From Henricia sp. BOLD:AAB3569 (Eukaryota > Echinodermata > Asteroidea > Spinulosida > Echinasteridae): a stretch of DNA of 64,000 nt. Shown here in pieces: positions 188 to 64,000 of the stretch (position 1 is the stretch's first letter; each line of letters begins with the position of its first letter). Under the pieces are notes generated by a model. It did no database searches, had not been told where the DNA came from, and saw only the letters and a list, made by a program, of their open reading frames with translations. The translations under genes and the position numbers were made by a program. The stretch covers positions 1 to 64,000 of the forward strand of contig JBBELK010000311.1 in the NCBI GenBank assembly GCA_037783545.1, given 5' to 3'.

Positions 188-192
188 CATAC

Positions 193-399: not shown

Positions 400-441
400 C
401 GTACCATTTCAACGCCCACTGTCATGCCTCGAAAGCCAAAC

Positions 442-13983: not shown

Positions 13984-13985
13984 CA

Positions 13986-36158: not shown

Positions 36159-39100
36159 TCATCTTGGCTGGACTCCGGCCAACATCTGCGCCAACAGCAG
36201 CTGCGTTCGGCTGATGTCCGCCAGTACACGTGGGTCTATCGCAGGTGCAGGGACAGGCATTGCTGGAGTCTCCGACTGGATGACAGACTTCGGGAGGTGA
36301 TTGGGATTGGAGTGTTGTCCCGCTCCAGCACGGCTGGTGTGGCGCGACTGCTCCGCTTTGGCAAGTGGGACCTCCTCCTCTGTAGTGGGCTCCGGTGGGG
36401 TATCTTCCACTTCTGATGGGGGTTGAGGGGCTAGATCGTCAGGGTAATGCTCCCCTGCTTTGTGTAAAGCAGCGGGTGCTATCTCTGGATCTTGCACATC
36501 TGAAGATTGAGGGGCTTGGTCCTCAGGGTGGTGCTCCCCTGCTTTGTGAAAAGCAGCAGGTGCACTCTCTGGCTCTGGTTGACCTGTTGGCATCGCCGGA
36601 GTCTCACCTTCTGTCTCCAGTATGATGACCACCTCATCTGCCTCCTCATCTTCGTCAATGTGCATTGGCAAAACTGGGTCGTCTTGATGACGACATCCAG
36701 TAGCTGGAGGTTCATCCTCATGCAGTACCAAGGTTCTGCTGTCTAGGAGGTCCTTTCGATTCAGGGTCTTCTCCTTCCCCTCTCCGTCAAGTGGAGCAAC
36801 GATGTAGACGTGGCCGGTTGGGTTCGGCCTCCCTACAACTTTGTGGGGTCGGTTGTCCCACACATCTTGGATCTTGTTTCTCCCCTTGACGGAACGGTTT
36901 CGCAGAAAGACCCTTGCTCCAACATGGAGATCCTCATCTCTCGCTGCCTCATTATAGCGTTGCTGTCTTCTGAGAGCCTCCTTCTCTGTTGTGCCTGCAG
37001 CTTTCTGAAATGCGTGCTGCATTCGCACATGATGGTCCGCTACCCACTGGTCAAGCTCAAGATCGTCGTCTTCCTCTCTTCCGAACCCAAGAAGGTGGTC
37101 TACGGGTAATCTTGGTTCCCGTCCGAAGAAGAGATAGTAGGGGGAATAACCTGTTGAGGAGTGGGGTGTCGCGTTGTATGCGTAGATCAGCTCTGGGAGA
37201 TGTTCTGGCCATCTGCGCTTCTGGTCCGGGGGCAGCGTGCGTAAGCGATCGTGCATGGTACGATTAAAACGCTCGCACTGCCCATTTCCTTCGGGGTGGT
37301 AAGGCGTCGTTCGGCTCTTGGTGACACCGTACATCTCACAGAGTTCCCGGATGACTTTGCTTTCGAAGTTCCTGCCCTGGTCGCTGTGAAGTCTGCGAGG
37401 AACACCAAAACGGACGAACCAGTCTCTCACTAAGCATCGAGCCACCGTTCTTGCCTTTTGGTCCTTGCATGGTATGGCTTGTGTAAACTTTGTAAAGACA
37501 TCGGTGAGAACCAGCACGTTTTCCACATTGTTTGTGCCAGGCTCCAGGACGGTGAAGTCCATGGCGAGAACTTCGAGGGGTCTTTTGGCGATTAAGGAAC
37601 CCATGGTAGGATGGAGCTTCTTCCCAGCTTTGGCTAACATACACCTCTGACAATTCCGGCAGTACTCTTCGATGTCGTGTATCATCCCTGGCCAGAAACA
37701 TCTGCTACGGGCGAGTGCAAGGGTCCTTTCTACTCCTTGATGTCCAACCTGATCATGGACTGCAGTTAACAACTGCTCTCGTAGAACTTGAGGAAGTAGA
37801 AGTTGACTGATCTCGCCACTCGCTTCTTTCCTTTTCTTGTAGAGAATGTTGTCTCTGGCCTCCAGGTGGTTCCAGAACTTCAGCAACTTCCGCGTTGGCT
37901 TGTCCTCCTTCATGAGCTTACTGATGTGGGGTTGTCGTCCACTCTCCCAGTAAGTCCACAATCTGCCTAGGTGTTTGTCGTTCCGTTGGAGTGTAGCCAT
38001 GTCTTCAGTAGAGATGGAGGGAAGGGTTGACATCGCAGCAGGTGCTGTCACATCTGGTCTGATGCGGAGTTCATTTAGTCCAGCTTCAACCAGGGTGTCT
38101 CTTACTTGCGAAACAACTGTGGAGGGAATGTGAGTGGAAGCATAAGATGAAGAAATGGTCTCTTCAGTGGATATCTCTTCAGAGTGGGCAGTTTGCAGAT
38201 CTTCACTGTGAGTGGTCTTCCTGCTGAGGGCATCGGCATTACGGTTACTTCTTCCCGACCTATATTTGATTGTGAACTGGAACTGTTCCAAATCTCCAGC
38301 CCATCTGGTCTCTATCGCTCCCAACTTCGTGTTCGTCTGAAGATAGCTGAGGGGGTTATTATCAGTGTAAACGACAAAGTTTGCACCGAGAAGGATGTCC
38401 CTGAACTTCACAGTGATCGCCCAACGCAATGCTAACAGTTCCAACTTCATGCTGCTGTAGTTCTGCATGTTCTTTTCATTCTCTCTCAAGCCTCTACTGG
38501 CGTAACCCAGGACTACAAAACATTGCTCTTGTTGTTGGGACAAAACTGCACCCAGACCTTGGTAGCTAGCATCAACCTCCAGGATTAATTGACGAGAGAA
38601 ATCGGGGTAGCCTAGGAGAGGAGCAGTCGTCAGAAGTTGCTTCAAGTCAGTGAACGACTTGTCACAAGACTCATCCCATGCATCTGATATGGGTTTGATG
38701 GGACTGACCTTTCTGTGCTTCTTCTTCCCTGTTCCCCCTAAGAGTGCGTGGAGTGGAGCCGCGACTTTAGCAAACCCTGGTACAAAACGGCGGTAGTACC
38801 CAGCTAGACCAAGAAACCCGCGGAGTTCACGTTCTGTGGCTGGCTTCTTCCATTCTCTAACCGCGCTTATCTTCTCAGGATCTGGAGATATCCCTCCATC
38901 AGATATGGAATGGCCCAAGTACTTTAGTTGTTCCGTGAATAGGTTGCACTTCTCTGGTTTAACCTTCAAGCCAAATTCAGTGAGGCGGTCCAGCACTGAC
39001 CGTAGTCGTTCAAGCGTCTCCTCGAAGGTACGACCAAAGACTAAGATGTCATCTAAGTAGACGATGAGAGACTGGAAGTTTTTGTCACCGAACGCTTTGT

Positions 39101-40847
39101 CCATCAAGCGCATGAATGTGGCTGGCGCATTGCAGAGGCCGAAGGGCATACGGGTGAACTCGTACAGACCTCCAGTCCCTACTCGGAAGGCTGTCTTCTC
39201 AACATCTTTTGCAGCAACGGGAATTTGATGGAACCCATGGGCGAGATCCAGGCTGCAAAAGAACTTCGCTCCACCAAGTGCATCGAGGGCTTCGTCGATG
39301 CGGGGAAGTGGATAGGCATCTCTGTGAGTCTTGGCATTCAGGGCCCTGTAATCAACACAAAGCCTTAGCTTTCCATCTCGCTTCCTCACGAGTACGATCG
39401 GTGAGGCATACGGACTGGATGACTCCCTGATCACGCCCCTTTCGAGAGATTTCTGCAGGTATTCTCGAACTTCAGCCCATTGGTGAGGTGGTATGCGCCG
39501 GTGAGGTACTCGAACTGGAACATTGTCAGTAGTGTTGATAGCATGAGATATTTTGTCACAGAGTCCGATGTCGTCTTCATCTCTGCTAAATATGCTGGCA
39601 TGGCTGGAAATTAGTTGGTGGAGTTGATGCTGCTGATCGTCACTTATCCCAGTACCGACTTTCATCCGTGACATCAGGCTCCTGGCTTCATCAGCGCAGT
39701 CGTTTTTAACTTCACCTGCCTGCATTTCCTGCCAAGTTGCTTCAAAAGCTCTGCTGTGGTGTTCAGCGACCGCACTGCTCACTGTGGCTACTGGGGTTCT
39801 CGGGGGTAAATAGAGGTCATCATTCGTGAAGTTAGCAACTTGAACCGGTATTCTACCACTGCTGTCGACGGAGACTAGTGTAGGAGCTACAGCTAACCCA
39901 TTTGGTAAGTGGGTCACATCTACATCCAGCTGTTCTATTATGGCCTCGTAAGTCACATCGGTTGCAGCAGGTTTCACTGAACATTCTATCAGAAGGAGAG
40001 AGTTGGCGGGGACTAGGATGGGCTTGGACCCCACTGTTCGGACTTTACCTGCAATATCTGGCTGATGTACAGTGCCACTTCGCACTTCCTCATAGAGAGC
40101 GAGTACATGAGCCCATTCAGGTCCGTCACTTCGTCTGTTCAACACCTCCAGGTAGTTTTGGCCGCTTGCATCTTGCAGTAACTTCTCTCGGATGTCCCTG
40201 AAGATGTTTGACCCAATCACTCCTGGTACTCTCTTCTTTCTCTCTGCAATCGATGTGCCTGTAGGGTCCTTGACCACCAGAAAACCCATGTTGACGAAAG
40301 AGTGGCCCAGCACTGTTAGTGGCAATTCAACATAGCCGAGGTAGGGAATGGCCAGACCTTGAGCACCGGATATGCTGATGAACGCAGTCACATCTACTAA
40401 TTCTGTCTCAAGAAAGTGTTCTCTGAAGAAAGATTCAGTAATCGTTGAAACTTGCGCTCCTGTGTCAAGTAGACAACGCACCCTTGATGCACCAAGCTGG
40501 ACGACAGATTCTGGACACTGCCCTACCGCTTTTCTGTAGATTGAGCCGCTATTAGTTAATTCTTGTGGGCCTGCCGTGTGGCTCTCAATGACAGGCCGTT
40601 CTAGTTTAACTGAGGGCCAGGCTTCTGGGGGACAAACTGCTGTGCTGGGGACTGCTGAGGAACGAACTGTTGAGCCGCGGACTGCTGGGAGACAAAGTGC
40701 TGTGCCATAGACTGCTGGGGGACAAACTGCTGGGGGACAAACTGCTGGGGATCCCTGGTACCCTGACTCGTTCCTCCTGACGACGGGGATGACGGGGCAT
40801 GGGGGCAGTCTCGCTTGAGATGACCTGTGGACTGGCAATTGTAGCAA
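36159..40847 (-). CDS. pol: Gypsy pol polyprotein: protease, RT, RNase H, integrase
   Basis: An uninterrupted 1562-codon frame. The protease has the DTGA active site at about residue 128. The reverse transcriptase has YPLPRIDEAL, DLAHGFHQIPV, FGLCNAP and catalytic YLDD near residue 596. RNase H is marked by LEVDASYQGLGAVL and YTDNNPL. The integrase has an HHCC zinc finger (about 1030-1070) and a catalytic core with AMDF, HSDQGRNF and the HPEGNGQCERF helix carrying the Glu. The C-terminal 250 residues are acidic and proline-rich; no clear chromodomain was recognised. The frame is -1 relative to gag and overlaps its last 247 nt, which suggests -1 ribosomal frameshifting; the first 80 or so codons as listed are probably not used as a start. 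Confidence 0.95.
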   Translation of the reverse strand: MLQLPVHRSSQARLPPCPVIPVVRRNESGYQGSPAVCPPAVCPPAVYGTALCLPAVRGSTVRSSAVPSTAVCPPEAWPSVKLERPVIESHTAGPQELTNSGSIYRKAVGQCPESVVQLGASRVRCLLDTGAQVSTITESFFREHFLETELVDVTAFISISGAQGLAIPYLGYVELPLTVLGHSFVNMGFLVVKDPTGTSIAERKKRVPGVIGSNIFRDIREKLLQDASGQNYLEVLNRRSDGPEWAHVLALYEEVRSGTVHQPDIAGKVRTVGSKPILVPANSLLLIECSVKPAATDVTYEAIIEQLDVDVTHLPNGLAVAPTLVSVDSSGRIPVQVANFTNDDLYLPPRTPVATVSSAVAEHHSRAFEATWQEMQAGEVKNDCADEARSLMSRMKVGTGISDDQQHQLHQLISSHASIFSRDEDDIGLCDKISHAINTTDNVPVRVPHRRIPPHQWAEVREYLQKSLERGVIRESSSPYASPIVLVRKRDGKLRLCVDYRALNAKTHRDAYPLPRIDEALDALGGAKFFCSLDLAHGFHQIPVAAKDVEKTAFRVGTGGLYEFTRMPFGLCNAPATFMRLMDKAFGDKNFQSLIVYLDDILVFGRTFEETLERLRSVLDRLTEFGLKVKPEKCNLFTEQLKYLGHSISDGGISPDPEKISAVREWKKPATERELRGFLGLAGYYRRFVPGFAKVAAPLHALLGGTGKKKHRKVSPIKPISDAWDESCDKSFTDLKQLLTTAPLLGYPDFSRQLILEVDASYQGLGAVLSQQQEQCFVVLGYASRGLRENEKNMQNYSSMKLELLALRWAITVKFRDILLGANFVVYTDNNPLSYLQTNTKLGAIETRWAGDLEQFQFTIKYRSGRSNRNADALSRKTTHSEDLQTAHSEEISTEETISSSYASTHIPSTVVSQVRDTLVEAGLNELRIRPDVTAPAAMSTLPSISTEDMATLQRNDKHLGRLWTYWESGRQPHISKLMKEDKPTRKLLKFWNHLEARDNILYKKRKEASGEISQLLLPQVLREQLLTAVHDQVGHQGVERTLALARSRCFWPGMIHDIEEYCRNCQRCMLAKAGKKLHPTMGSLIAKRPLEVLAMDFTVLEPGTNNVENVLVLTDVFTKFTQAIPCKDQKARTVARCLVRDWFVRFGVPRRLHSDQGRNFESKVIRELCEMYGVTKSRTTPYHPEGNGQCERFNRTMHDRLRTLPPDQKRRWPEHLPELIYAYNATPHSSTGYSPYYLFFGREPRLPVDHLLGFGREEDDDLELDQWVADHHVRMQHAFQKAAGTTEKEALRRQQRYNEAARDEDLHVGARVFLRNRSVKGRNKIQDVWDNRPHKVVGRPNPTGHVYIVAPLDGEGKEKTLNRKDLLDSRTLVLHEDEPPATGCRHQDDPVLPMHIDEDEEADEVVIILETEGETPAMPTGQPEPESAPAAFHKAGEHHPEDQAPQSSDVQDPEIAPAALHKAGEHYPDDLAPQPPSEVEDTPPEPTTEEEVPLAKAEQSRHTSRAGAGQHSNPNHLPKSVIQSETPAMPVPAPAIDPRVLADISRTQLLLAQMLAGVQPR

Positions 40848-41683
40848 CGTCTAGGACCCTGACTCCAACGGCGAGCAGGTCGCTGCATGGCCTGTAAGAG
40901 TGCCTCAATCTGCTGCTGTTGCCGCTGCAGTTGTTCGCCCTGCCTTTCAAGAAGTGCCTTCATGCCATGTGCCCCGTCTTCAGCCTTGACCTCGTGTACT
41001 ACTACTGCCTTCTGAGTTTTGACACGGCTGGTACCAAGCCACTCGATGGCACGGTCTCTAGCATCGAAGAAACTCAGCTCCGGTGAATCAATATTCATGC
41101 GACGCAGCTCTCTCCGTAGACCCTCATCATTAACTGCCTCGGCTAGCCTTCCCTTCAGCGTTTTATCTCTCGTAGCATTGAAGGAGACATCCAGGCGAGC
41201 CATGGAATTAAACAATTCCATGAGCTCGAGGGAGAAACTCAGTAGATCTTCTCCTTGGCCTTGGTGGAAGGAGAAAAACTTCTGCTGGATCTGGGGGAGC
41301 GTCTCACCATCACCAAAGACTTTCAGCAGTACACGGAAGATGTCGTCTGGACCCTTCACAGCATCACCTCTGCCAAGAATTTCTTGCCTAGCTCTGCCGG
41401 CAAGATGGTCGATGATAAACGCAGCACCATCCTCCACTCCGATCTGTCGAGCAGTCAACTGACCTTTGACGTCACTGACCCACTCTTGGACAGATGGATC
41501 ACTCGGTTTATCCGGCTTCCCCCTGAAGCGTTCCAACCGTCTCCCTGCTGATACATATATCTGCTTCGCTGGAGGGGTAGTAGAGCTGACGCCTGCTGTG
41601 GCCTTCTCGCGCTCCTCCTTCTCTGCCTGAAGAGCTACCTTCATCGCCTCAAGCTCGGCCCGCAGTTGCTCCATTCCCTCCAT
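40601..41683 (-). CDS. gag: Gypsy gag (capsid/nucleocapsid)
   Basis: 360 codons. N-terminal coiled-coil-like region, a capsid-like helical middle, and one CCHC zinc knuckle CYNCQSTGHLKRDC (C-X2-C-X4-H-X4-C) about 280 residues in, followed by a repetitive tail in which QQFVPQQS-type units recur (about 40630-40740). The tail repeats overlap the start of the pol frame and may be polymorphic in length. Start Met chosen as the first in-frame ATG after the primer site. Confidence 0.93.
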   Translation of the reverse strand: MEGMEQLRAELEAMKVALQAEKEEREKATAGVSSTTPPAKQIYVSAGRRLERFRGKPDKPSDPSVQEWVSDVKGQLTARQIGVEDGAAFIIDHLAGRARQEILGRGDAVKGPDDIFRVLLKVFGDGETLPQIQQKFFSFHQGQGEDLLSFSLELMELFNSMARLDVSFNATRDKTLKGRLAEAVNDEGLRRELRRMNIDSPELSFFDARDRAIEWLGTSRVKTQKAVVVHEVKAEDGAHGMKALLERQGEQLQRQQQQIEALLQAMQRPARRWSQGPRRCYNCQSTGHLKRDCPHAPSSPSSGGTSQGTRDPQQFVPQQFVPQQSMAQHFVSQQSAAQQFVPQQSPAQQFVPQKPGPQLN

Positions 41684-41778
41684 TCTTGATAGATGTAGCT
41701 GCTCGTCTCTGGGTCAATTGTCTGCCGTTAGTTTCGCCTCATCCTCGACTGGGGGTAGATGCAGTATTAATACACCAT

Positions 41779-50524: not shown

Positions 50525-51158
50525 TACTTCCAGATACTGAAAGTATTGGCTGTTTTTTTAATGAAAATGATGTTATTAAAGCATATACTTTAATCAGTAG
50601 AACCAAGTCTTTTTACAGGAAATTGTAATTTTTTTGTAAAATCAAAATCTCTACACGTTCTACATACCGCCCTGGCCGTAATACTCTCGTGTAAAACAAA
50701 ATGGTGATATTTTTTTTTTAAAATAAAATCCCCCCTCATCCAAAAATGGTACGTGCTGGGTCGCAATTCGGGTAGTTTGGTGCTCGACTCTTTTATACGC
50801 GAGCGCCATCGCACAGAGGCAGGACTCTAGGATTTATGCAAATCTGAAGGAATAAATCTCACCATTTTGTTTTACACGAGGCCTAGTATAGGAGGTTCTG
50901 CTCGGAGCGATGTGAATTCGATCGTCGATTTGAGAAAAACGAGGGTGTGTACGCCAATTTTAAAAGTAATACAGCCAGGGCGGTATGTAGAACGTGAAGA
51001 GATTTTGATTTTACCTGTAAAAAGACTTGCCTAAAGATTCCAATTGGAGCCACGTTTTTGATAGGGGAAAAAAATAGTTCTACTGAAAGTAACGTATCGG
51101 CTTTAATAACATCATTTTCATTAAAAAAAACTGCCGATACTTTCAGTATCTGGAAGTA
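50525..51158. mobile_element. 634-bp long-TIR (Mutator-like) element, copy 2
   Basis: Ends TACTTCCAGATACTGAAAG and CTTTCAGTATCTGGAAGTA. The interior shares ATCCAAAAATGGTACGTGCTG (split: CCAAAAATGGTACGTGCTG) and GGTATGTAGAACGTG with copy 1 at 48233. The flanking 9 bases do not match each other, so the target duplication has decayed or one end recombined. Ends 140 bp before the SUR start codon. Confidence 0.85.
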
Positions 51159-51298
51159 CCGGTAACCAGTGACTATTTGATGAACTGGTTGAAAGTTGAT
51201 ATCCTACATGTGTATACAGAGATTCCAGGGTGATTACGGTCACATTGAACAAATTCATGTTATTGTTTAAATTTCATGCAGCATCCATAGAACTTAAA

Positions 51299-51913
51299 AT
51301 GGAGGACGCTCTTGAGAAGTTCAACTGGTACTGTGGCATCAACAACACAGAGACTCTGGCTGACTTCACCTTTGACCTGAACCACACCCTGTACAATGCC
51401 TGCTTCACCGATCTCGTCTACACCCTACCGCATCTTGTCTTCATTGTCATGGCAACCATGGTGCTCCTTATCAAGGGATGCTGCACCGGTATCCGCAAGA
51501 AGAAGTTCACCTACCTCATCCAGTACCCTGGACACAATTTGCGCTGGTTGCTGTACCTAGTTTTTCTTTCGCTGGTGTTCTGCGAGCTTGCAGAGGGCAT
51601 CTTGAACGACACCTACGTTTACAAAGATGAGTCAACGAGGCCGCATTTGTACGTCCCTGCGGTTGTTGTCGCGGTTGCAACAATCCTAACCATGGTTTAC
51701 TACAACCAGACAGAAACATGGAATTCCAGGTATATGCCCTTGCTGCAGCTGGTCTACTGGGAACTGGCTTTGGGTGCCGAGGTCCTCAGGTTCCTGAATT
51801 TGTACAATGATCCTCGAGTGGATAACTCCCTCCTACGGGTAAAACTTAACATCGCTGCTATAGTGATATATTCACTGATGGTGGTGATAGAAATGAATGT
51901 CATCCGGATCAAG
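51299..51913 (+). CDS. ABCC8/9-like: SUR-like exon 1: N-terminus and TMD0
   Basis: 205 codons. Start ATG at 51299 lies in AACTTAAAATGGAGG; an in-frame ATG exists at 51230 but a possible splice acceptor TTTCATGCAG at 51271-51280 makes the upstream part likely 5 prime UTR or intron. Glycosylation sequons N15-N-T and N28-H-T sit before the first helix, as expected for the extracellular SUR N-terminus. Five hydrophobic helices follow (about 36-58, 76-97, 108-130, 140-158, 178-200). Donor AAG/GTAAGA. Confidence 0.9.
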
Positions 51914-51992
51914 GTAAGACCTTAAAGTTCACCCTCGGCGATTTTCTAATTTGCGAAGAAGGTTTATATCTTGATAACTACAATGTAAAGGT

Positions 51993-52111
51993 GCCTTTCC
52001 TTTGGTCCGTTTTTCATCCGTTTGCGTCTGAATCGCTCCATAGACCGATACAGACGGACGAGCGAAACGCAACGCACACAAAATTGATGAAAAACGGACT
52101 AAAGGAAAGGC
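51993..52111. mobile_element. 119-bp MITE with 26-bp inverted ends
   Basis: GCCTTTCCTTTGGTCCGTTT and its inverted partner AAACGGACTAAAGGAAAGGC bound the element, 80 bp after SUR exon 1. Confidence 0.75.
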
Positions 52112-52482
52112 GGCTTTACTAATATTCAAATAATATTTTTCATCAATTACTGTCTTAGTTTGTAAGTTTACTAATGAAGAAAATCTTGTAATTAAATATT
52201 CATGTTTTCAACGTTTTCTACTTTCTGCTGCTGGGGGAACAGTACAGTTTGCTGGGCCCGAGACATGTTTTGATGATGTCTAAGCGGGTAGTCGCGTTAT
52301 GCACAACGTTTAGGTGGAAGATACATGTACTTGTTAATAGTTTCCTTCCATTCATTAAACCCATAAAGTTCATTAAACCAGTAAATGGAAAGAATACACT
52401 TGAATCTAAACAACATGCAATTAAATATAATACTAACCACATTATTAAGCTTGTGATAAAAACCAATCATGTATACTGCCTT

Positions 52483-52640
52483 TGAAAGTCTATTGTATTA
52501 TTTTCAATGACCCAAATTCTTACTACAAACTCTAGCTGTTTATACAGAAACCTTAAATAGAGCAATGGTACCAAATACCGTATAACGTTATTCCACCTGA
52601 GGTGGTATCTTTTTGAAATTACATGGTTTTTAAAATGGGC
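52483..52640 (+). repeat. Dispersed repeat R, copy 5 (diverged)
   Basis: GTCTATTGTATTATTTTCAA and TGACCC match the start of the R family; the rest is weak. In SUR intron 1. Confidence 0.35.
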
Positions 52641-52912
52641 GTGCACACTTCATTTTTTGTATATACGGCTGGGTACATGTACTTTGGCAGTACACATGTA
52701 CATGGTTGCATTGCAAACATGCATGGATTTTCACAGATTGCTGAATCTACGGAGCTAAAATTTCTTTGGATTACTTTGATTCCTCTTTATTATACATTTA
52801 AGGTACATACTGTAGTTGTTCCAGAAAATGATTAACATTATTGATGGAAACATTCTCTACAAATGATATACTGGGTATTTGTCTGTAGCACGGAAACTTA
52901 ATATCGAGTGCT

Positions 52913-53017
52913 GGGGTGCATTCAATAGCACAATACAATACCAACAATACCTTCAAAGCTGAAGGTATAGAAAAATACAGCATGCCGGTATACGTATTGC
53001 GCTATTGAATGTGCCCC
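52913..53017. mobile_element. 105-bp MITE with inverted ends
   Basis: GGGGTGCATTCAATAGCACA and, inverted at the right end, GGGGCACATTCAATAGCGCA. In SUR intron 1, ending 164 bp before exon 2. Confidence 0.7.
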
Positions 53018-53181
53018 TGGAGGGTTCATGACCTCGCTTTCCGGCTACTTTCAGTGTTGTTGATTACCACATTCCGTATCGCACTGATCAATGTACAATA
53101 ATTACCGTATATCAACTACCCAATACCATTTTTTGCCGAGTAGAGATCAAAATGAGTGTGTATTCTTTGTTTTCTTCCAAG

Positions 53182-53418
53182 ATCTTCAAGTGTTGTCACA
53201 AGGAAGATGAGTTTCCCGAGGACCTTAAGAAGCCTGACATGTACTACATGCAGGGCTACACCAGCCTCCTGTCCTCAGCCTTCTACTGGTGGCTCAACTG
53301 GATCTTCAAGAAAGGTTACAAGACGGCCCTGGAGCTCTCAGATCTTGGCAGTCTCTCTGAGTTTCACACCACCAAATACCAGAGGGATGTCTTCACTGCA
53401 GCCCTTGAAAAGGAGCAG
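53182..53418 (+). CDS. ABCC8/9-like: SUR-like exon 2: L0 linker/start of TMD1
   Basis: 79 codons after TTCTTCCAAG. Contains the ABCC hallmark YTSLLSSAFYWWLNWIFKKG and LELSDLGSLSEFHTTKYQRD. SUR1 has the corresponding [20 protein letters not shown]. Ends LEKEQ at donor CAG/GTCTGT, a weaker-than-usual donor. Confidence 0.9.
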
Positions 53419-53438
53419 GTCTGTTGCATGCCTCATCC

Positions 53439-53478
53439 TACTCTAAGAATGCTAAAAGTGACTTTGTTACGTTGACCT
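53439..53478 (+). repeat. Orphan terminal repeat of the TACTTTTAGAAGGC family
   Basis: TACTCTAAGAATGCTAAAAG and GTTACGTTGACC match 22055 and the ends of 44098-44999. Starts 20 bp after the exon 2 donor. Confidence 0.4.
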
Positions 53479-53879
53479 AGGGACAGGACAAGTCAGTGTT
53501 GGGTTCTAGTTATTTTACACATGTCAAAAATCTCATAGTCAAAATCAAACTTTTAAAAACATACCATGCAGGTCGTTCTCCTCTAAAAAATTATGCGCAA
53601 TTTTTACATTTGTAGGGTTCACTTATTGTGTAAAATGTTTGATTTGACATGACATTATTCCGCAGTAACAATGGAATAACCTCAAGAGGGTGGGCTCACA
53701 GTGAGTCACAAGCAAACTACAGTAGTTTCATTTTGACTAACTTGACATTTGACATTTCTAACGTGACATTTCTTTAATTAATAGTGCACCAATCCCAGTG
53801 CCCTTTGGCAGCTGGAGTTAATGTTTTTAACTGGCATGTTAAAAAACTCCTAATATTTTTTACCTAATATTTTACAAAA

Positions 53880-54060
53880 CTATCTGAAAGAAGTCTTGGA
53901 GGTCTCGGGCTTGAATCCCGATGAGGCCTATGCAGGTGATTTTTCTGTCACCTCATATTTAGTAATTTTGTTTTAATGGCGATGAGGCACCGTATCAAAT
54001 TTTGCATTTGTTACTTTGCTCAGTTGCACATTCATGCAACACCGAGAGAAAAATTGGGTT
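53880..54060 (+). mobile_element. 5 prime-truncated tRNA-derived SINE
   Basis: GGTCTCGGGCTTGAATCCCG is a tRNA T-arm/box B, then GATGAGGCC and a tail ending in GCTCAGTTGCACATTCATGC. Same family as 54094; a tail relative is at 33140. Confidence 0.5.
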
Positions 54061-54093
54061 CGTAGGTAAAAACTTGAGAGAATATACCACTGT

Positions 54094-54235
54094 GCCTTGT
54101 AGCTCAGCTGGTAGAGCATCTGCCCGGTAAGTCGGAGCTCTTGGGTTTGAATCCTGACGAGGCCCGTGTTATTTTCCTGTCATCCCATGTTTTTTAGTAC
54201 ATGTATGCACTATGTAAGGCCTGCTGATGACTATC
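54094..54235 (+). mobile_element. tRNA-derived SINE with tRNA-Thr-like head
   Basis: The 70-nt head (54094-54163) has acceptor GCCTTGT/ACGAGGC, an intact D arm TAGCTCAGCTGGTAGAGC and T arm TTGGGTTTGAATCCTGA. GGT sits at the anticodon position but the anticodon stem is mispaired by an extra base, so a SINE or pseudogene rather than a working tRNA gene. In SUR intron 2. Confidence 0.6.
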
Positions 54236-54814
54236 TCCAATTTTTACCAATTTTGCACGAATACATGTACATTTAAAATAAAAGCTCCATACTGGTAATC
54301 CAGGATACCTTTTGCATGTGTCACGGTGTGGGGAATATACTATGTAGTCCAATACTCCTGATGAAAATCCACTATATCAGGGAGTGTTAACTTTATTTTC
54401 AATAATTTTCATCATCAAGAAAGTTAAAGGGCCTATGACATGCTAGACAACTTTTTGCCTAACCTTCGCTTCATATAAAGGATTACTTGTTAAAGCAAGA
54501 CATGCTATTGTTCGTTTGGATGTAAAATCAATAAAAGGTAGCCTTTTTCAACTTTGAAGATTTCATTGAAATAAATCACAGACAGAGGGCGCTGTTTGGA
54601 GTGCATCACGTAAGGAAAAGTTTAGAAAAAACAAGACTTCAAGTTGTGGGATATTGCTGCAGTTTTCTCCCCCAGTTTCGTCATGGCTTACAACAGGAAA
54701 CATGTAGAACAAACTCAAACAGTCATGGATTACAAAAGTTCCAGGACATTTGAGAAAAAGGTGGAATCTTTTGTGCACAGTTGAATGTGATTTTTCTGTG
54801 TTTGCCTCCGTCTT

Positions 54815-55145
54815 GCGTGGACCGTCTTAAACGGATAATAAAGACCTGGCTGGTTTTAAACACTTAAAAGCAAATTTGTTGCAGTAAGACAAACGGCTAC
54901 AGGTTTTCCCGGTCATGTGTGTGTGCGCGTACAACATGCGTGCAATGCATGTAACATGATTGAACACTGTAAAAATGTCAAAAGATCAAAGTTTACTGTC
55001 CAATTAAGAGTTTTACTGATTTATACAAAAGAGTATTTATAAATGGAAATAATAGTTGGTTTGGCCAGTCTTAAACAGTATGTTTAAAACTGGCTAGGGG
55101 TCTGGACGCTGACAATGGCCCTCGCCTTGTGGCTTGGGCCTTTGT
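54815..55145 (+). repeat. Dispersed repeat Q, copy 3
   Basis: Contains GTTTAAAACTGGCTAGGGG and CTGACAATGGCCCTCGCC, matching 31375-31600 and, inverted, 26340-26890. In SUR intron 2, ending about 70 bp before exon 3. Confidence 0.55.
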
Positions 55146-55212
55146 TAACTTTAATAGCTTTTAATACCAATACATACTTGCTTAATGCGTTATTGCTGGA
55201 TTTGATCCACAG

Positions 55213-55410
55213 GCTAGAGCCAAGGCTAACAAAAACCCTCTGAGCTTGTATCGCGTTTATACAAGAGCCTTTGGATACCGTATTATGATGGGTGGTTTTG
55301 TGAAGATTGTCGGTGACATCGCATCCTTCGTAGCACCTCTTGCACTGGCTGGGGCCATCAACTACGTCACAGCACTCTATTATACAACAGGCATCGAGGA
55401 ATATACCATA
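55213..55410 (+). CDS. ABCC8/9-like: SUR-like exon 3: first TMD1 helix
   Basis: 66 codons: ARAKANKNPLSLYRVYTRAF, then FVKIVGDIASFVAPLALAGA, ending EEYTI. The order of a basic elbow, YTRAFG and a D-FV-P helix is that of ABCC TMD1. Acceptor GATCCACAG, donor ATA/GTAAGC. Confidence 0.9.
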
Positions 55411-55633
55411 GTAAGCCAATGTTTAATGCAATCTATTGGAAATTATCGGGCTTTTCAATATTTTGTACATTATTTTCCAAGCTTCACTTGGCAGGTTTCA
55501 CTTTCCAAGGTAATTTGGAAATGTATACGTGTGTCGTAAAAACATCAAGATTTACATCTGAAGTCATTTGAATCAAGTCTGAATCAAGTCCCAAGTCTCA
55601 AAATATTGTGACTCGTGTATAACTCGAATCAAA

Positions 55634-55764
55634 GGCTGTAGCCATGGTAGGGGCAGGTTTTCACATTTAAATGATGTTGCAATAGATCCATAAAGTGCCT
55701 ACTCGTACATGACACACAGTGAAAATGCGACTGCATTGTCATGACCGCTCGTGCAAAGAGACTG
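55634..55764. mobile_element. MITE of the 15226 family, copy 2
   Basis: Shares GGGGCAGGTTTTC, ATTTAAATGATGT and GTGCCTACTC...CATGACACA with 15226-15375 over its whole length. In SUR intron 3. Confidence 0.65.
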
Positions 55765-55989
55765 TACACTATGTAAATGTAGCATGCTTAGGTCGGACTA
55801 TGGTAGAATCCACAACCTCCGCATACTGAGCAAATGTTTTAACCACTCGGCTGATACCAGACAAAGGTATTTCCTCGAAAATATGGTCTGTGTTGCCAAA
55901 ATGCCCCCTTCACTGTGGAAAGACCCAAATAGTGCATGACCTCATTGGCAGTCAATATGAGCATTAGCTATCTTTGTTTTTTCCAATAG

Positions 55990-56139
55990 ACCAAGTACGT
56001 GACAGGGTCTGACTTCTTGCGCAATGGCTTCGTGCTAGTCATCATCATGTTCTGGTCTAACATCATCAAGCTGTTGTCTCAGCAGGGGCACTATCACATT
56101 GTTATCATGGAATCGACTCACATCAAGTCTGCACTGCAG
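55990..56139 (+). CDS. ABCC8/9-like: SUR-like exon 4: second TMD1 helix
   Basis: 50 codons: TKYVTGSDFLRNGFVLVIIM, helix to LLSQQGHYHIVIMESTHIKS, ending ALQ. The end leads directly into the AAIYDKSLRLS motif of exon 5a or 5b. Donor CAG/GTGAGA. Confidence 0.9.
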
Positions 56140-56214
56140 GTGAGAAGTTGGATTTGGGGGGAATTTTCATCATCATTCCAAGCTTTATTGAATTTTACTT
56201 ATGCCGTGCGCTAA

Positions 56215-56745
56215 AAAAAGGCTTGCCACCAATCTCTTGTCAGTAATTAGTGTCGTTAACTCTTTTACTACAGAAAATTTCCAAGGTCTGTGTAGTAGAA
56301 AATTCTCCCACATTTCACCTGTCCTAAACAAGCTCCATTGGCTTCCGGTACATTATCGGATCATCTTCAAGATGATGCTCATTGTTTTTAAGGCATTGAA
56401 TGGCACGGCTCCATTATACATCTCGAATCTGCTCTCTTATCACAAACCATCACGCACTTTACGCTCTAGTAGTCAACTCTTGCTCCATCAACCAAGATCA
56501 CGTCGCACGTGGGGAAGTCGATCCTTCTCAGTGGCAGCACCCCGATTTTGGAATGAATTGCCCTTTCAGATCAGATCAAGTGATACACTATCCTCTTTCA
56601 AATCATGTCTCAAAACCCACCTCATGCACAAGGCATTTGATCAAATGTAGTTTTCTTTAATAGTGTGTAATTTGTATTTCAGCGCCCTTGAGGGTGGAAA
56701 CGTTGCGCTATATAAATATTCATTATTATTATTATATATTATTAG
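56215..56745 (+). mobile_element. 3 prime end of an L2/CR1-like LINE
   Basis: An open stretch of 149 codons encodes the conserved LINE C-terminus: PVLNKLHWLPVHYRIIFKM, FKALNGTAPLYIS, then FSVAAPRFWNELPFQIR and FKSCLKTHLM. It is followed by the tail GGAAACGTTGCGCTATATAA and an ATT microsatellite. Strongly 5 prime-truncated; in SUR intron 4, sense orientation. Confidence 0.85.
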
Positions 56746-56993
56746 TAATTAATTGAAGGCCAAGTTTCTGTGTGTACACAGAAGAGCCGCTGTCAATGGC
56801 TTTCCTGCCAGAAGTGGATATTTATCAAGCCACTGTAAGCGGCACATGGTAGTGGAATAGTTAATGAGTTATTTAGTTAACCCTTTGATGCACAGATTGT
56901 TTTGAAACTCTATTTTGTGTAATGAAGGGTTAACTCGTTGTTGTGACAGAATATTTTTGCAGTCAGCTTCAAAGCTGAAAAAAATCATGAATA

Positions 56994-57432
56994 TGGGTCT
57001 GTCCACAGTAATGGGGTACATTTCTGTAACATTCAAGATCTTGGGTACCAGTTAACTTCAAATGTCTTAATTTTATCTTTAAATTATCAAGCTAAACTGA
57101 GGAAATAACTTTTTCACCAAGGAGTAAGAAAAATAGTCTTACAACATACATTTGTGAAAACCTTGTGCACAAATTTATTCTATTACGCATGTAACAAAGA
57201 CGGAAAAAAATGTCACAAAATTGTCTGTCCACGTTACCTACGTAATAGGAAAATTTGTACACTTGCTTTTCAAAATTGTATGTTGTGGCAGCAATTTCTT
57301 ACCTTTTTGGGCAAAAGTTATCTCCTGAGAACAAAACAAGGACATTTCTTTAATTCTGAGATAAACTAAAGACATCTAAAAGGAATTATTGACTTGTTTT
57401 TCAAATGTACCCCATTACTGTGGACAGACCCA
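56994..57432. mobile_element. 439-bp element with perfect 30-bp TIRs and TA target sites
   Basis: TGGGTCTGTCCACAGTAATG plus GGGTACATTT at the left end is exactly mirrored at the right end. TA flanks both sides (56992-56993, 57433-57434), the signature of Tc1/mariner-type insertion. No transposase. In SUR intron 4. Confidence 0.85.
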
Positions 57433-57728
57433 TATACAATGTGACTCACAGTTTGCCATAAATTGCCCAGCCTCTTTTCACCCAGGGAGCTGAGAAGGTT
57501 AAATTAAAGAATGCTAATCGACAGACCATTTACCAGTGATAATGTGAAGCGCCATGTTATACATGTGTATGATATGTGCGCTGTATAAATATTAATGTTG
57601 ATATTTTTTCCAAGTTTGCTTTAATGTAAATCTACCTCTGAAAATGTTGATCAAATATTGGAATGCAAATTTCACTTGGATTCCAAGATTCTTGCTGGCA
57701 ACAATTGACTTTAAACATGTCAACACAG

Positions 57729-57884
57729 GCTGCAATTTACGACAAATCGCTGCGTCTGTCCAGCTACACCATGAGCGGGGGCGCTATGACCATGGGCCAA
57801 ATCACCAATCACATGTCGGTTGACACCTCCAACGTGCTGAACTCCACCCAGTGGGTCCATTACGTCTGGTCCATTCCATTCTTG
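57729..57884 (+). CDS. ABCC8/9-like: SUR-like exon 5a (alternative exon)
   Basis: 52 codons, phase 0: AAIYDKSLRLSSYTMSGGAM, then TMGQITNHMSVDTSNVLNST and QWVHYVWSIPFL. This is the ABCC segment with the cytoplasmic loop and coupling helix (GQITNHMSVDT) leading into the next membrane helix. Acceptor CAACACAG, donor TTG/GTACGT. Followed after only 59 bp by a homologous exon of identical length. Confidence 0.93.
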
Positions 57885-57943
57885 GTACGTCTCATTTTAC
57901 TTGCATTCACCCCCACAATTGAAATATTCTGATTGTTACGCAG

Positions 57944-58099
57944 GCCGCTATCTATGACAAGTCCCTGCGTCTATCCTCCTATATGATGTCTGGGGGCAGC
58001 ATGACAATGGGCCAAATTACGAATCACATGTCCGTGGATACCACCAATATTCTCAACTCTGTTCAGTACATCCAGTATATCTGGGGTATACCTTTTGTG
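57944..58099 (+). CDS. ABCC8/9-like: SUR-like exon 5b (alternative exon)
   Basis: 52 codons, phase 0: AAIYDKSLRLSSYMMSGGSM, then TMGQITNHMSVDTTNILNSV and QYIQYIWGIPFV. 41 of 52 residues equal exon 5a, while 23 of those 41 conserved codons differ at synonymous positions. Acceptor GTTACGCAG, donor GTG/GTACGT, the same donor sequence as 5a. Confidence 0.93.
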
Positions 58100-58289
58100 G
58101 TACGTAAATTGAATTTTTAGCAGACATTGCACGAGAAAACACTTTAGTTCCACTCTATTAGTTCAGTAGAATTCACACCAAGCTTGTAATACATGTAATT
58201 TGTCAAGAGTTTGTGGTGAGCAGTCCATTTTTGGCAGATTTTGCTGGCGCCATTTTGTCCTCAACCATAAAAAAAAGCAAAGAATCGGA

Positions 58290-59300
58290 ACTTGGCTGCA
58301 TTCCAAGTTCAGGTGTGGGAGCATGTGCCGCAGCGGCACTTTGCCTTATAGCGATCAATCGGGCATGCATCGGACCCATTCCCACCCCTCCAGGTGGTCC
58401 CCCTGCTGTGCCAACCACGACGCACGGGGTCGACCTACAGGTCGCCTCTACCCCACTCTCTTAGGGTCCTTGGCACGGAGGACCCGATTCGCCAGATTCG
58501 ACGAGGAGAAGCGAACCACATGGCCGTAGAGGCACAGCTGGTGCTCTCGGATCAAGCAGGTTACCCTCCCCACCCACGCCTTTCGAGCATCTTCTGGTTC
58601 GATAAAAGGTCTATCCAGCGGCGAAGGGAAATAGTCAGGAAGGCTGGTCAAGGTCCACGCTTCACTTGCATAAAGCAAAAGACCGGCAGGACCAGCGAGA
58701 GGAAGACTCAGACTTCTGCTCAAATGCCAAAAGCGCCAAACAGTCTTGTTCAGCGAGTTTATCACTCCCTGCGCTAGGTCTAGACGCCGAGTGACATCAG
58801 CCTCGCTAGTTGCAGAGCAGTGAACCACGCTACCGAGGTAAGTTAAGCTCTCCACGATCTCAGCACTCTCGCCCGATGCAAGACGAGAATCAACAGCAGC
58901 ATCCAGAAGGTCACCAAAAACCTGGATCTTGGTCTTGATCCAGGAGACTCGCAATCTTAGCCTCACCGCCTACCCACTCAGTGTCTCTAGTGCTTCCATC
59001 AGAATCTCCATCATCTCGGCAAAGATCATGGCGTCATCGGCGAAGTCCAGATCGGTGATCTAAACATCTCCGAACGACACTCCACAGTCGGTCCCTCCCA
59101 CAGTCGGTCCCTCCCACCATCCGTCCCTCCCACCATCCGTCCCTCCCACCATACGTCCCATAATCCAGTCCATACAAGTATTGAAAAATGATGGGGTCAG
59201 TACGCAAGCGTGTGCAACCACAGGAGACATGCCTCGCCACCCGCCTTGAGCATGATCTCCATGTAGATGCTGCAGACACCTGGCCCCTTGCCATCCTTAA
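58290..59300 (-). mobile_element. RTE/I-like LINE reverse-transcriptase fragment
   Basis: On the minus strand: FQYLYGLDYG-type turn, then TDLDFADDAMIFAEMMEIL with the catalytic FADD (about 59025-59036), SWIKTKIQVFGDLLDAAVDS, SLTYLGSVVHCSA and LCLYGHVVRF near the C-terminus. Several frameshifts and stops; inactive. A family common in fish and marine invertebrates. Confidence 0.8.
59087..59160 (+). repeat. 16-bp minisatellite (CCATCCGTCCCTCCCA)n
   Basis: About five units lie inside the LINE fragment, between its NTCMDW-like and FADD blocks, where they replace a normally variable loop. Confidence 0.85.
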
Positions 59301-59649
59301 TCTGCCCCAGACCCTTTTGAACTTCTTCGAGGCTCGGTGGGTCGCAGGTCACTGGCGGTTCAGCAGTCGGGGGCTCGACACCTCCCGCAGAGAGTGCATT
59401 TCAAACATGCGAACAATGCAAACATTTGCCAACAACTGGTACCCGGCCTTCCATAGATGCATACACTGTAACCAGTGGCGAACATTGGCAACGTTCGCAT
59501 AAGTGGAACGCAGCCCTGAATCTACTAAGTGTGGTGGCTCTTACTCAGGTTCTTCATTAACATATTTGTTACACTCAGTCACACTTAACCACACAAATAT
59601 AAACTGCACTTAGAAAATTTTGTAAATTTTGAGGTTTTGAGTGTGCACA

Positions 59650-60125
59650 AGTCAGTGTTGTAGTACTCGAGTCCAGGACTGAGACTTGAGTCCGACTCGA
59701 GTCACAATTTTCGTGACTCAGCCTCGACTCGAGTCACATTGAAAAATGACTTGGAATCGAACATGGTGACTCGTGACTCACGAGTCACATATTTCAAGAA
59801 AGAAAGAAAAAAGATTTGCCTGTGCTTAATGCAGGATTCTTCGGGAAAAAAACACTACGATGCGTGATTATGTACACTCCCTCACCAGTCTGGTAAGGAG
59901 CGCACGAGCACATCATCATTTCACATATTGTGTGCACAAAACTGCAGCAGATTCAGTTTATTTAATTTGGCAAACGAGTGACTCGTCACTCGTACTCGGA
60001 CTCGAGGAAAGTGACTCGTGATTCGGACTCGAGGCTAATGACTCGAGACTCGGGACTTGAACTCGGGGCTAGTGACTCGGGTCTCGGGCTCCGACTCGAT
60101 TTTGGTGACTCGACTACAACACTGG
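59650..60125. repeat. GACTCGAGTC-rich repeat, second copy
   Basis: Dense in GACTCGAGTC and CGAGTCAC words in both orientations. The interior ATTCAGTTTATTTAATTTGG and TTTCACATATTGTGTG match, inverted, 45115-45175. Probably a foldback-type non-autonomous element with minisatellite arms. Confidence 0.65.
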
Positions 60126-60256
60126 CACAAGTTTATGTATAGTAAACATTTAATGTCATTCATTTGGTTCTTCACCACAATTTCAAATTGTCATTGAAAA
60201 TAAGGTTCTGAGTGCTTTCTTTAGTGTGCAAATCATTCGATATGTGTGTCTGGCCA

Positions 60257-60538
60257 ATAGACCGTATTCCTGAACGCGGGAGGGCGCTAGAACAAGGTGA
60301 TTTGGGGGAAAATGTCCATAGACGACAGTAGAAAAGTGGGGGTACGTGCATACGTACGTACGTACGTGGGGAAAAGTCGCTCACGCGGAGCGCGCAGGCC
60401 CGTGGCGCGCGCACAGATTTCCATTACAAATAGACGTCTGGAAGGCGTGCGCGCGTAGCGCGTTTTGTGTTCGAACACAACGCGCAATGGGCGCGGATCA
60501 CTTGACAGCGCCCTCACGCGTTCAGGAATACGGCCTAT
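60257..60538. mobile_element. CGTATTCC MITE, copy 2 (inverted relative to copy 1)
   Basis: Ends ATAGACCGTATTCCTGAACG and CGTTCAGGAATACGGCCTAT, with inverted AGGGCGCT next to both. Complete 282-bp copy that shows the full inverted ends of the family. Confidence 0.88.
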
Positions 60539-61636
60539 AGTGTAGTTGCGCATTTTGGTGGCGGCCATGACATATGACAGCTGTGTATGCACAGCAACGC
60601 GTAAACAAACGGACGAAGTGTACTGCGAGACGGAAAATTTGACGCTGTCGTCGATTCGCATAAATCTCAGTCCCAGGCAACAAGGCCTAGTTTTGAGAAG
60701 GTTTTCTTGTGTTGGTGCTAGCTGCTGTACCGGCGATGCCTCAAGATTGTGCCGTTTCGAGCTGCCACAACCGGCGGTGGAGGCCCGGAGGGACAAAAAT
60801 GTGTGGGTTTTCAACATGACTGCGCGGCCGGCTCTGCATCTTTCATGTCTTTTGGTGATTCCCAAAAAAGTGATCGGGGCCAACTGCCTTCAGTCAGCAT
60901 GCACCTGGCATTAGGTAGGCATTGCATATGCAGCTATATAGGGATATAGGCCTACATGTACTGAGAAATTTGCCGAGGGGGCCGGGGAGGCCATGCAAGC
61001 CGAAGTTGCTTTGGGAGGGGAAGGGGATTTTTTAGGTGAAAAAACTAGGCCGACACGTTTGTTCGCATACCATGTGTTAATTTTCAATGAAACAACTTGA
61101 TATTTTCTCATTGCTAAAATCATATTTCCTAACTAGGAAATAATTCAGTTTACTGGTCGCCACTTATTCTCCTTATTGACTTAATAGCCACAAAAACGTG
61201 TTAATATTTTAATGAGGAGTGATTTTAGGAGTGAAAAACATTGACTATTCCTTGAAAATACTTAAACTTGTACTGCCCTGTTCCGTAAACGGAATTCATA
61301 CCTCTAACCAAATTTGCACGTTTTGGGGCATTATATGTCATATTTTATTAGGACGAATTAGTGGCGAACGTGTACGATATTTGTACCAAATTTTCGGGCA
61401 TGTACGCCACTAATTAAATGTATCTGTCCAGAAAAAAAATGAGCAGTTGATCATGGCTTTAGACTTTATGTGCAAAACATATTTCTCCCTAAAGGTCTAT
61501 TACTCAAAGACTATAGCACTTCAGACCAAACCATTTCAGGGGAAGTTTTCTACTATCACGGGGAAGACAAGCAACTGTTGAAAATGCTGTTTATGTTACT
61601 GTGTTTTGTGTTGAAATATTTCTTTCATATTTGCAG

Positions 61637-61843
61637 CGGCCAAGTTTTGCTGACAGATGTACATCAAGTGTCACTAAAACTACTGATGTTAAGACCAGAT
61701 GAAGTAGACCACACCTACTCATGTTTTCCTGTTCAGCAGTCTGCTGTTGAGGTGATGATTGAAGTGCCTCCAATCAATGACACTGAAGCACCAACTGACT
61801 GCATACCCTGTCTTCCACCAACATGTTCCGCATCATGGCCAAG
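61637..61843 (+). other. Unassigned exon-like open stretch
   Basis: 207 bp bounded by an acceptor TATTTGCAG and a donor AAG/GTACTT, open in one frame (GQVLLTDVHQVSLKLLMLRP... to ...CLPPTCSASWP). No family recognised. A second splice-like acceptor at 62722 would lead straight to a stop. It does not fit the ABCC protein. May be chance or an unrelated small gene. Confidence 0.25.
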
Positions 61844-61879
61844 GTACTTTTCCAGTTTAGTTCATTCAACATGTCACTT

Positions 61880-62375
61880 ACACCCCGTTTACACTCGATT
61901 CGCCTTTGCCGAATCGAACTCCGCAATTTCCAAAAAGGGGAGTTGAAGCCGGGTAGGCACTAAGTGTAAACGCAAAAGGTGAATTGAAAAAGGCGGATCA
62001 GACCCGGGTCTGATTCGCCTTTTTCAAGTCACCTTTGGGGTAGGGTTGAACCCCGCAATTGCGGGGTTGAATCCTGCAATCGTCAAGGTCGCTTGTAGTG
62101 TAAACGCTACCAGAATACAGATTCGGCAATTTGAGTGTCCTTGGGGCGGTGCCCGCAGTGTAGTAGATTTAATTGACCAATCTGGCACTAGTGCAGCAAC
62201 ACCTAACGGCTCACGCATGCGCTGCAGTTACATTTAGTGGTGACTTTTGCGGTTTCTGAAGCGAGTTGAAGCGATTTGGGGTGTAGTGTAAACGCGGCAA
62301 ATGTTCAGTTTTGTGGTCGCAATAAAAATGCTGGATCTGTATCCACCTTTGCCGATTCGAGTGTAAACGCGGTGT
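61880..62375. mobile_element. 496-bp element with GTTTACACTCGA inverted ends
   Basis: Left ACACCCCGTTTACACTCGAT and right, inverted, ACACCGCGTTTACACTCGAA, followed on both sides by CGGCAAAGG-like words. Internal GTGTAAACGC motifs recur at 61970, 62097, 62286 and 62361. Non-autonomous DNA transposon of undetermined superfamily. Confidence 0.75.
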
Positions 62376-64000
62376 TAGACCCAGTATTAACGGTGTGTGG
62401 TGTTTTAGCTCCTTTTTACACACTTTAATGGTGACTTGTCGCTAAAAATCACAAACATTTTAAGATGTAAAACTGGAATGTTAAAGTCCCCATTTTGTCA
62501 ATTTACCTTGCATACAGCTATTTTCTTGACTTCTCTCAACATAAAAAAAAAGGGCTTTGGGTAGGTTCTACGTTTTATTTGGACTTTCTTTTCACTTGTT
62601 GCTAAAGTTTTCAGGGCTTCTAAAAACCCAGTATTGCAGTAAATTTAACTAATTAAATTAAATTCCCTGTACATGTATAGTTAGTTTCTCATAATCAACA
62701 TTTGTGATTTGTTTCATTTCAGGTAAAACAAGATATGACAGAGCCAAGGACCGTTCCACCAAGAAACGGCACCTTTTGAAATAAGGAGGAAAAAAGCCAA
62801 GAGAGAGACACATTACCAGATGCATCCATCAACTGAGAAGGATGAGACAACATAAGGTTCTCAGACAGACTTAACTAGTTATAATATTATGCAGATGGAA
62901 ATGGAAATTAAAGTTGCACTGCCCGTGTTTTGGCCGTCAATTTTGTTTTTTTAAAGATAAATAGGTATTTTTCTAGAATAGAAAAAGTTATCAGCTTTCA
63001 TTTGGTACCAAGAACGCAAAAATCTGTCAAGGATTAATGCCAGTCGATTAAAAACAAGAAATGATTAAATGGCTGGCAGGTCATTTAATCGAGAGAGTGT
63101 TGACGTATTATGTTTTGACGTTTTAGGAAAAAGGCTTAGACCAATAATCTCCAGTTCTCGACGTCGGAAATTCAAGTTTTTGATATTTTTCGTTACAGAG
63201 ACACGTAAGCTTTCTAAATTCGTTCGCTTGTGTAAATTCATTTTTAAAATCTTTTCACCGAAACACGGGCAGTGCAACTTTAATGAAATGAAAAAACACA
63301 TTTGCTGTGGGTTGACAAACGTGTGAGTCGGTTGTCACAGAATAAAGTTCTGCCTAGACCTTTGCCATGTACAATTAAGCTCGCAGTATTATTCCCGCTT
63401 TGTGCTCCTTAAAAGAAAAGGTATATACTCAAGAAACAGACATAGGGCCTGTAGTGCTAAACATGTGCAACTCATTACTCATACATTATTCTTGTGCAAA
63501 GAAAAAGACAATGATCAAATGATAAAAAGCAGATGTGAACAAATGGCATTGCCTTGTAGTACGGGCACCGCCATTTTGTCCGAAAACTGGACTGTATGCG
63601 AAAAGACAATTTTCACCTAGTTTTGGAAAAAATTGCAGCACTCGCAATACGAGGCATCACTGCAATTGCCATTCTTTGTTCATTTTCGCTTTCAGTGGGT
63701 TGTTTTACTTTTCTTTTGTGTAACAAGATCAAGAAGGTACACAATGTCTTTGTCTTGGGTATATTTCTTTAATAATGTGGGGCGAGGCAGGAGGTGGCAG
63801 GGGTGGATGGGGAGTGGATTTATGGTAAAGGGGGCGTGTTGTGCTTGGAGGCCAGATATTAAATACCAAAGCAGCAGCTAATTGACAGGGTTCATTTTTG
63901 TTTGTTTTTTGGGCTGTTTGTTTTTTGTTTGTTTTTTGGACTGCCCCTTTTTGCGTATAAATTTGATGTGTGTGTGGTGTGGGAAAAAAAAGCAACATGG
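62376..64000. other. No gene or repeat recognised; right end of window
   Basis: AT-rich sequence with short frames only. No ABCC exon (no Walker A, no LSGGQ, no TMD1 continuation) was found on either strand. Confidence 0.45.

Follow-up and report, generated by a model that had tools for sequence, protein, structure and literature searches.

A sea-star gene of the SUR-like ABC transporter family carries two adjacent, similar exons, here called 5a and 5b, within the 64,000-nt stretch of Henricia sp. genomic DNA that we analysed (the window). This arrangement raises the question of whether the two exons are spliced as alternatives to one another, and, if they are, what exchanging one for the other would alter in the transporter. 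The gene model on which the analysis rests is given below; positions are those of the window unless the prefix C311 is used.

The host gene

51299..51913, plus strand: exon 1, coding (TMD0), begins at an ATG; open frame with a GTAAGA donor, within the 209-bit SUR1 match
53146..53418, plus strand: exon 2, coding (L0 linker); acceptor chosen by frame and uncertain
55213..55410, plus strand: exon 3, coding (TMD1 start); within the SUR1 match
55990..56139, plus strand: exon 4, coding (TMD1, before the CL4 loop); ends in phase 0 with a GTGAGA donor
57729..57884, plus strand: exon 5a, encoding the end of TM7, coupling helix 1 and the start of TM8; W42, H44, S48
57885..57943, plus strand: 59-nt intron between 5a and 5b
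57944..58099, plus strand: exon 5b, the alternative copy; Y42, Q44, G48; type shared with a Patiria miniata protein
58100..64000, plus strand: first part of the intron to exon 6
C311:66848, beyond the window: exon 6

The translation of exons 1-4 joined to 5b matched residues 12-462 of SUR1 with 209 bits (E 8e-61), followed by SUR2 (181 bits), YCF1 (57.5), MRP4 (52) and MRP1 (50). Because the scores drop from SUR1 and SUR2 to YCF1, MRP4 and MRP1, the TMD0 is of the SUR type. The gene (gene A) runs on to about C311:123591, with its last coding block at C311:123460, and 24 downstream coding blocks could be joined without a stop, a result that is partly by construction since the blocks were chosen as open stretches. 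The assembled model of 1496 residues contains two ABC_membrane and two ABC_tran stretches (Pfam), and gene A is therefore apparently complete, with both membrane domains and both NBDs, i.e. a SUR-type TMD0-L0 followed by an ABCC core; the first 464 residues alone gave no Pfam hit at 0.001. The named nearest database matches of the protein are 'ABCC8-like' or 'ABCC9-like'. However, the residues of SUR1 TM8 that line its drug pocket (W430, F433 and L434) are not kept, being N/N, Q/Q and W/Y in 5a/5b, and we therefore call gene A SUR-like. Exon 6 was sought in 58100-64000 with SUR1 and MRP1 sequences as probes, and no match had an E of 1 or below. Within the 8.7-kb intron that leads to exon 6 there are also minus-strand frames (58448-59400) that by eye resemble part of a LINE reverse transcriptase.

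Other parts of the window hold a tandem array of U1 spliceosomal RNA at 1-13986 (34 Rfam matches; 33.5 copies of a 418-bp unit with 99% matches) and, on the minus strand at 36159-41713, open frames of 1563 and 370 aa that by eye resemble Pol and Gag of a retrotransposon of the Ty3/gypsy type. Two weak tRNA matches just above threshold, at 54093-54165 and 16091-16163, are perhaps tRNA-derived SINEs.

Anatomy and conservation of the exon pair

Both exons are 156 nt long, lie in phase 0 on both sides, are preceded by CAG and are followed by a GTACGT donor. They are identical at 41/52 residues and 110/156 nt, with synonymous codon differences at 23 of the 41 identical residues, and the last 13 residues hold seven of the 11 replacements (hypergeometric P 0.0025). 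The coordinates, the lengths and phase, the splice signals, the 59-bp intron and the residue and codon counts agreed base for base with the original prediction. The pair is also the largest direct repeat in 51000-64000 (168 nt, 72%) in a repeat search that was given no preset location, and in that search the similarity stopped about 6 nt beyond the exon borders. In the Protein Data Bank both exons matched SUR2 386-435 (5a with E 7e-4, 5b with E 2e-4), and the best match of 5a alone was yeast YCF1 (E 3e-5).

Differences between 5a and 5b are distributed over codon positions 1, 2 and 3 as 10, 7 and 29, and dN is 0.185-0.188 at a dS that is saturated at about 2 (LWL85 2.26, ML 1.92, NG86 undefined). 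The saturated dS rules out an assembly artefact or a pair of alleles as the source of the two copies. Both copies are intact and conserved, and the locus shows features of a tandem duplicated exon substitution, namely adjacent homologous exons of equal length class and phase, each with its own splice sites and each under selection. If the 59-nt intron were retained unspliced, the reading frame would meet an in-frame TGA. Since both exons are 156 nt long, neither the inclusion of both nor the skipping of both would shift the frame.

The two exon types in other echinoderms

We searched the database with the assembled protein, scoring residues 300-560, and obtained 78 proteins, the seven nearest of which are from sea stars (Acanthaster, Patiria, Asterias; 67-78% identity). 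Only the 5b type (VQYIQYIWGIPF) is present in protein P0004, an entry called 'ABCC8-like isoform X2 [Patiria miniata]', and only the 5a type in P0005 (Acanthaster) and P0007 (Patiria). At the 11 discriminating sites P0004 has seven residues of 5b and three of 5a. It is the sole 5b-type protein found, there being no second among 13 matches to its segment, in a database whose representatives are clusters at 90% identity and so hide isoforms that differ only in exon 5; its label 'isoform X2' is silent on where the isoforms differ. P0004 might come from a gene with a 5b-type exon alone, P0007 in the same species having the 5a type. The N-terminal TMD0 of P0007 resembles by eye that of P0009, which is of the type of the tandem paralogue described below (gene B), while the whole protein groups with gene A; P0007 may be a chimera that arose through conversion, or two genes may have been joined in its model.

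With exon 5 left out, a tree on 19 rows (gene A, gene B and 17 echinoderm proteins) placed gene A, P0004, P0005 and P0007 in one clade (98/96) and gene B with P0003 and P0009 (100/100). In the tree of exon 5 only (20 rows, 52 columns) 5b paired with P0004 (96/95). Constraining 5a and 5b to an exclusive clade gave an AU p of 0.043, a marginal value from a test run once the tree was known; a clade of the two Patiria exons, with an AU p of 0.062, is not clearly rejected. A recent, lineage-specific duplication is disfavoured by the first of these values.

Against P0004, 5b is identical at 42/52 residues, and the neighbouring exons at 45/60 (exon 3), 41/50 (exon 4), 37/44 (exon 6) and 38/44 (exon 7), so that 5b is about as conserved as its neighbours. 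Together with a dN of 0.19 against saturated dS between the copies, this bears out the original claim that selection has kept both exons for a long time. W42, H44 and S48, the residues of 5a, also occur in urchin, brittle-star and crinoid rows, which suggests that 5a is probably the ancestral type and 5b the derived one. Y42 is found in nine listed proteins besides P0004, which are more distant SUR-like or fungal proteins, and the sea-cucumber protein P0020 has Y42; the signature of 5b is therefore its combination of residues and not Y42 alone.

The paralogous gene and the origin of the pair

Gene B, the tandem paralogue, lies at about C311:135366-172969 and has a single exon 5 (C311:142124-142279), the product of which is 94% identical to that of 5a; in exon 2 the two genes share 78/87 residues. 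The 399-bp intron that follows the exon 5 of gene B is, by eye, largely G-rich and repetitive. We searched the 740.7-Mb genome (the same assembly as the window) for exon-5-like loci. A 5b query matched 16 places with an E of 1 or below: 5a, 5b, the gene B exon 5, three weak matches and ten further loci whose E was 2e-7 or lower. The surroundings of the gene B exon and of the ten loci were searched for a second copy, within 1.5 kb at six and within 2 kb at five of them, and a convincing one was present at 0/11; the best second match had E 0.013, which is at chance level, as was the best one when 5a served as the query (E 0.010, 27% identity). Neither a third copy of exon 5 in the window nor a 5b relic near the exon 5 of gene B was found convincingly. 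Some of the exon-5-like loci form pairs whose encoded segments are identical or nearly so (C682:469869 and C822:669290; C237:493113 and C237:604206; C264:1428878 and C264:1564888), which are perhaps recent duplicates or, where the members lie on different contigs, uncollapsed haplotypes.

Values of dS between genes A and B differ strongly from exon to exon: they are 1.5-1.9 for exons 3 and 4, and 0.3-0.44 for exon 2, for 5a against the exon 5 of gene B (0.44), for exon 6 (0.37) and for exon 7 (0.31), while 5b against the exon 5 of gene B gives about 1.4-1.5. The two genes thus form an exon-by-exon mosaic of low and saturated dS, a pattern that points to gene conversion. The same values offer a different origin for the pair, in which recombination between the two genes brought 5a in from the exon 5 of gene B next to 5b as the own exon of gene A: the 5a value belongs to a low-dS stretch with exons 6 and 7, and exons 3 and 4 and the 5b comparison, at about 1.4-1.9, would be the old component of a mosaic of converted and old exons. 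We regard this origin as unlikely, because the 5a type is common to urchin, brittle-star and crinoid rows and 5b looks derived, the introns just outside 5a and the gene B exon are by eye unlike, and later conversion between the genes would yield the same pattern. The splicing outcome would be the same with either origin.

The 59-nt intron and the predicted splicing outcome

Of the 29 gaps that separate coding blocks in gene A, the 59-nt one from 5a to 5b is the shortest, the next being 538 nt, and in gene B the shortest of 28 gaps is 224 nt (the ends of the later blocks are approximate in both genes). Introns of about 59 nt are spliced routinely in some animals, and human introns shorter than 65 nt are known. 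The predicted branch points of the form yTnAy lie 10, 15, 25 and 48 nt from the 5a donor, with looser candidates at 38 and 54 nt, the second of which leaves only 6 nt to the acceptor. In human and viral systems the minimum distance from donor to branch point is about 50 nt (PMC6692369; PMC7969005). With U1 bound to the 5a donor, every branch point that U2 could use would lie less than about 50 nt away, and the joining of 5a to 5b would be blocked; a transcript in which exon 4 had been joined to 5a would then have 5a joined to exon 6, and the alternative outcome would be that 5a is skipped and 5b used. Upstream of the 5b acceptor the first AG lies at a distance of 92 nt and falls within 5a, and 5b may therefore also use a distant branch point. 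As the frame survives double inclusion as well as double skipping, exclusivity would have to be set at splicing and not by nonsense-mediated decay.

Local RNA structure was rejected as the cause of exclusivity, since the fold of the region was not outstanding (z 0.43, with 67/100 shuffles folding at least as well). Counts of nine known splicing-factor motifs in the flanks of the pair, taken alone, showed nothing striking. The pyrimidine content of the 5a and 5b acceptors is 0.50 each, the lowest of 12 compared, and that of the gene B exon 5 is 0.55.

Reading the locus from genomic DNA, we consider it likely that the pair is an ancient tandem duplication in a SUR-like gene whose copies are spliced in a mutually exclusive manner, probably by steric enforcement. 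The anatomy of the pair, the constraint on both copies, a relative with the 5b type alone and an intron that seems too short for 5a-5b splicing all argue for the exclusivity that was originally predicted. Three other outcomes have to be set against it. The two could be alternative cassettes without strict exclusivity, giving 5a only, 5b only, neither and some double inclusion, the products of which would be tolerated or removed as protein. The 156-nt length, which preserves the frame in every combination, is compatible with this, and the pyrimidine-poor acceptors make skipping plausible; but double inclusion would duplicate the coupling helix and the start of TM8, the intron is below the steric limit, and although 79 of 81 database proteins have a match to exon 5, none of the 79 has an adjoining second copy (P0010 has one second match of 21 bits, about 700 residues further on). 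We therefore think that non-strict use is improbable.

The same count of 0/79 weighs against constitutive inclusion of both exons in a protein with a duplicated segment, for which the 59-nt intron would also be a poor substrate, and in spite of the preserved frame this is the outcome that we find hardest to credit. Nor does it seem at all likely that only one of the two is in use, its neighbour being a relic or appearing very rarely. The single exon of gene B and of the ten other loci does indicate that a second copy is dispensable elsewhere, but at this locus frames and splice sites are intact in both exons, dN is low at a saturated dS, Patiria has 5b-type residues as well, and 5b is conserved about like its neighbours. 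Mutually exclusive use of 5a and 5b is accordingly the reading carried forward here.

Predicted effects of the exchange on the transporter

The TM7-TM8 loop of MRP1 is CL4 (residues 390-439) and contains a coupling helix at 412-421; changes at G392, Y404, R405, E422 and F434 can abolish expression (PMC8469891), as can changes at K406 and D430 according to earlier work cited in the same paper. The exon aligned to MRP1 402-450, and exon residue i corresponds to SUR1 position 392+i. Both exons have Y, K and D at the positions equivalent to MRP1 Y404, K406 and D430; at the equivalent of F434, 5a has V and 5b has I. The two exons also differ at residues 14 and 19, which lie at or next to the coupling helix, and seven of the 11 changes sit at the beginning of TM8. 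The exchange would therefore be expected to replace the first turns of TM8 and to leave most of the coupling helix, as well as the cytoplasmic end of TM7, unchanged.

In SUR1, W430, F433 and L434 on TM8 line the pocket for repaglinide and glibenclamide (PMC6699824), and PMC9279661 agrees on the role of W430 and F433; in MRP1, Y440 belongs to a set of eight residues in contact with LTC4 as well as with an inhibitor peptide (PMC10089224). In the alignment, exon residue 42 corresponds to both MRP1 Y440 and SUR1 L434 and is W in 5a and Y in 5b, and residues 38 and 41 correspond to SUR1 W430 and F433. Because these two are N and Q in both exons, only the third of the three SUR1 pocket positions varies, and the pocket itself is unconserved; among the 11 changed positions, just one has a documented contact with ligand.

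The clustering of the changes at the start of TM8, including W/Y at a cavity position, favours a change in the ligand cavity over one in NBD coupling, and the switch would mainly affect ligand recognition or the gating state of the cavity, and not the handshake with the NBD. It had been proposed that the switch could tune coupling between the transmembrane domain and the NBD. The exon indeed covers the first cytoplasmic loop, coupling helix included, but only two of the 11 changes are there, against the seven at the start of TM8, and the proposal is therefore weakly supported. Somewhat short of an even chance, in our view, is the fuller reading that one gene makes two proteins, with all domains in common but with different first turns of TM8, by an RNA-level switch of pharmacology that includes a W/Y swap at a cavity position of SUR1 and MRP1, is at least as old as the split from Patiria and is kept exclusive by an intron too short to splice. 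The exchange occurs in nature, involves just 11 residues and takes in a mapped ligand-contact position, so that a construct carrying either 5a or 5b would test directly the role of TM8 in ligand choice or channel gating of SUR-like proteins.

Comparison with known systems

We take the tandem-exon event of ABCC9 to be that of the terminal exons of SUR2A and SUR2B, a swap that exchanges the C-terminus after NBD2. ABCC9 (SUR2) is among the human genes with tandem-duplicated exons (PMC9741552), so that the original remark that no such case was known in SUR needs qualifying, although that event differs from the present one. The two are alike in that a SUR-family gene carries a tandem-duplicated exon substitution (PMC9741552), but the sea-star pair occupies the place of coding exon 5, which is internal to TMD1 and reaches from coupling helix 1 to TM8, and not that of the last exon.

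For Drosophila MRP (CG6214), the precedent that was named for alternative exons in ABCC genes, tandem exon substitutions are reported (PMC9741552). One of the fly events involves eight interchangeable exons, the fly and worm ABCC substitutions are described as unrelated yet structurally coincident (PMC9741552), and a dMRP '8a 4b isoform' is named in PMC6185855. The variable exons 4 and 8 of Drosophila MRP and those of C. elegans mrp-1 resemble the sea-star pair in being internal tandem exon substitutions of an ABCC gene, but they belong to MRP-type genes of protostomes, whereas the sea-star gene is SUR-like.

With respect to the proposed mechanism, the pair would resemble alpha-tropomyosin and OGDH exons 4a/4b, where branch points less than about 50 nt from the upstream donor prevent the joining of the exons (PMC7969005, PMC6692369). 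It differs from OGDH in that the OGDH intron is 118-131 nt long in birds and mammals and relies on distant branch points (PMC7969005), whereas the sea-star intron is 59 nt long and its branch points are predicted. The kind of event is thus known, with separate ABCC exon substitutions in human, fly and worm (PMC9741552), and among the papers listed in open-access full-text searches, the place in the protein, the lineage and an intron this short have no earlier report. An echinoderm event in the TM7-TM8 loop would suggest that the ABCC family repeatedly varies its core by splicing.
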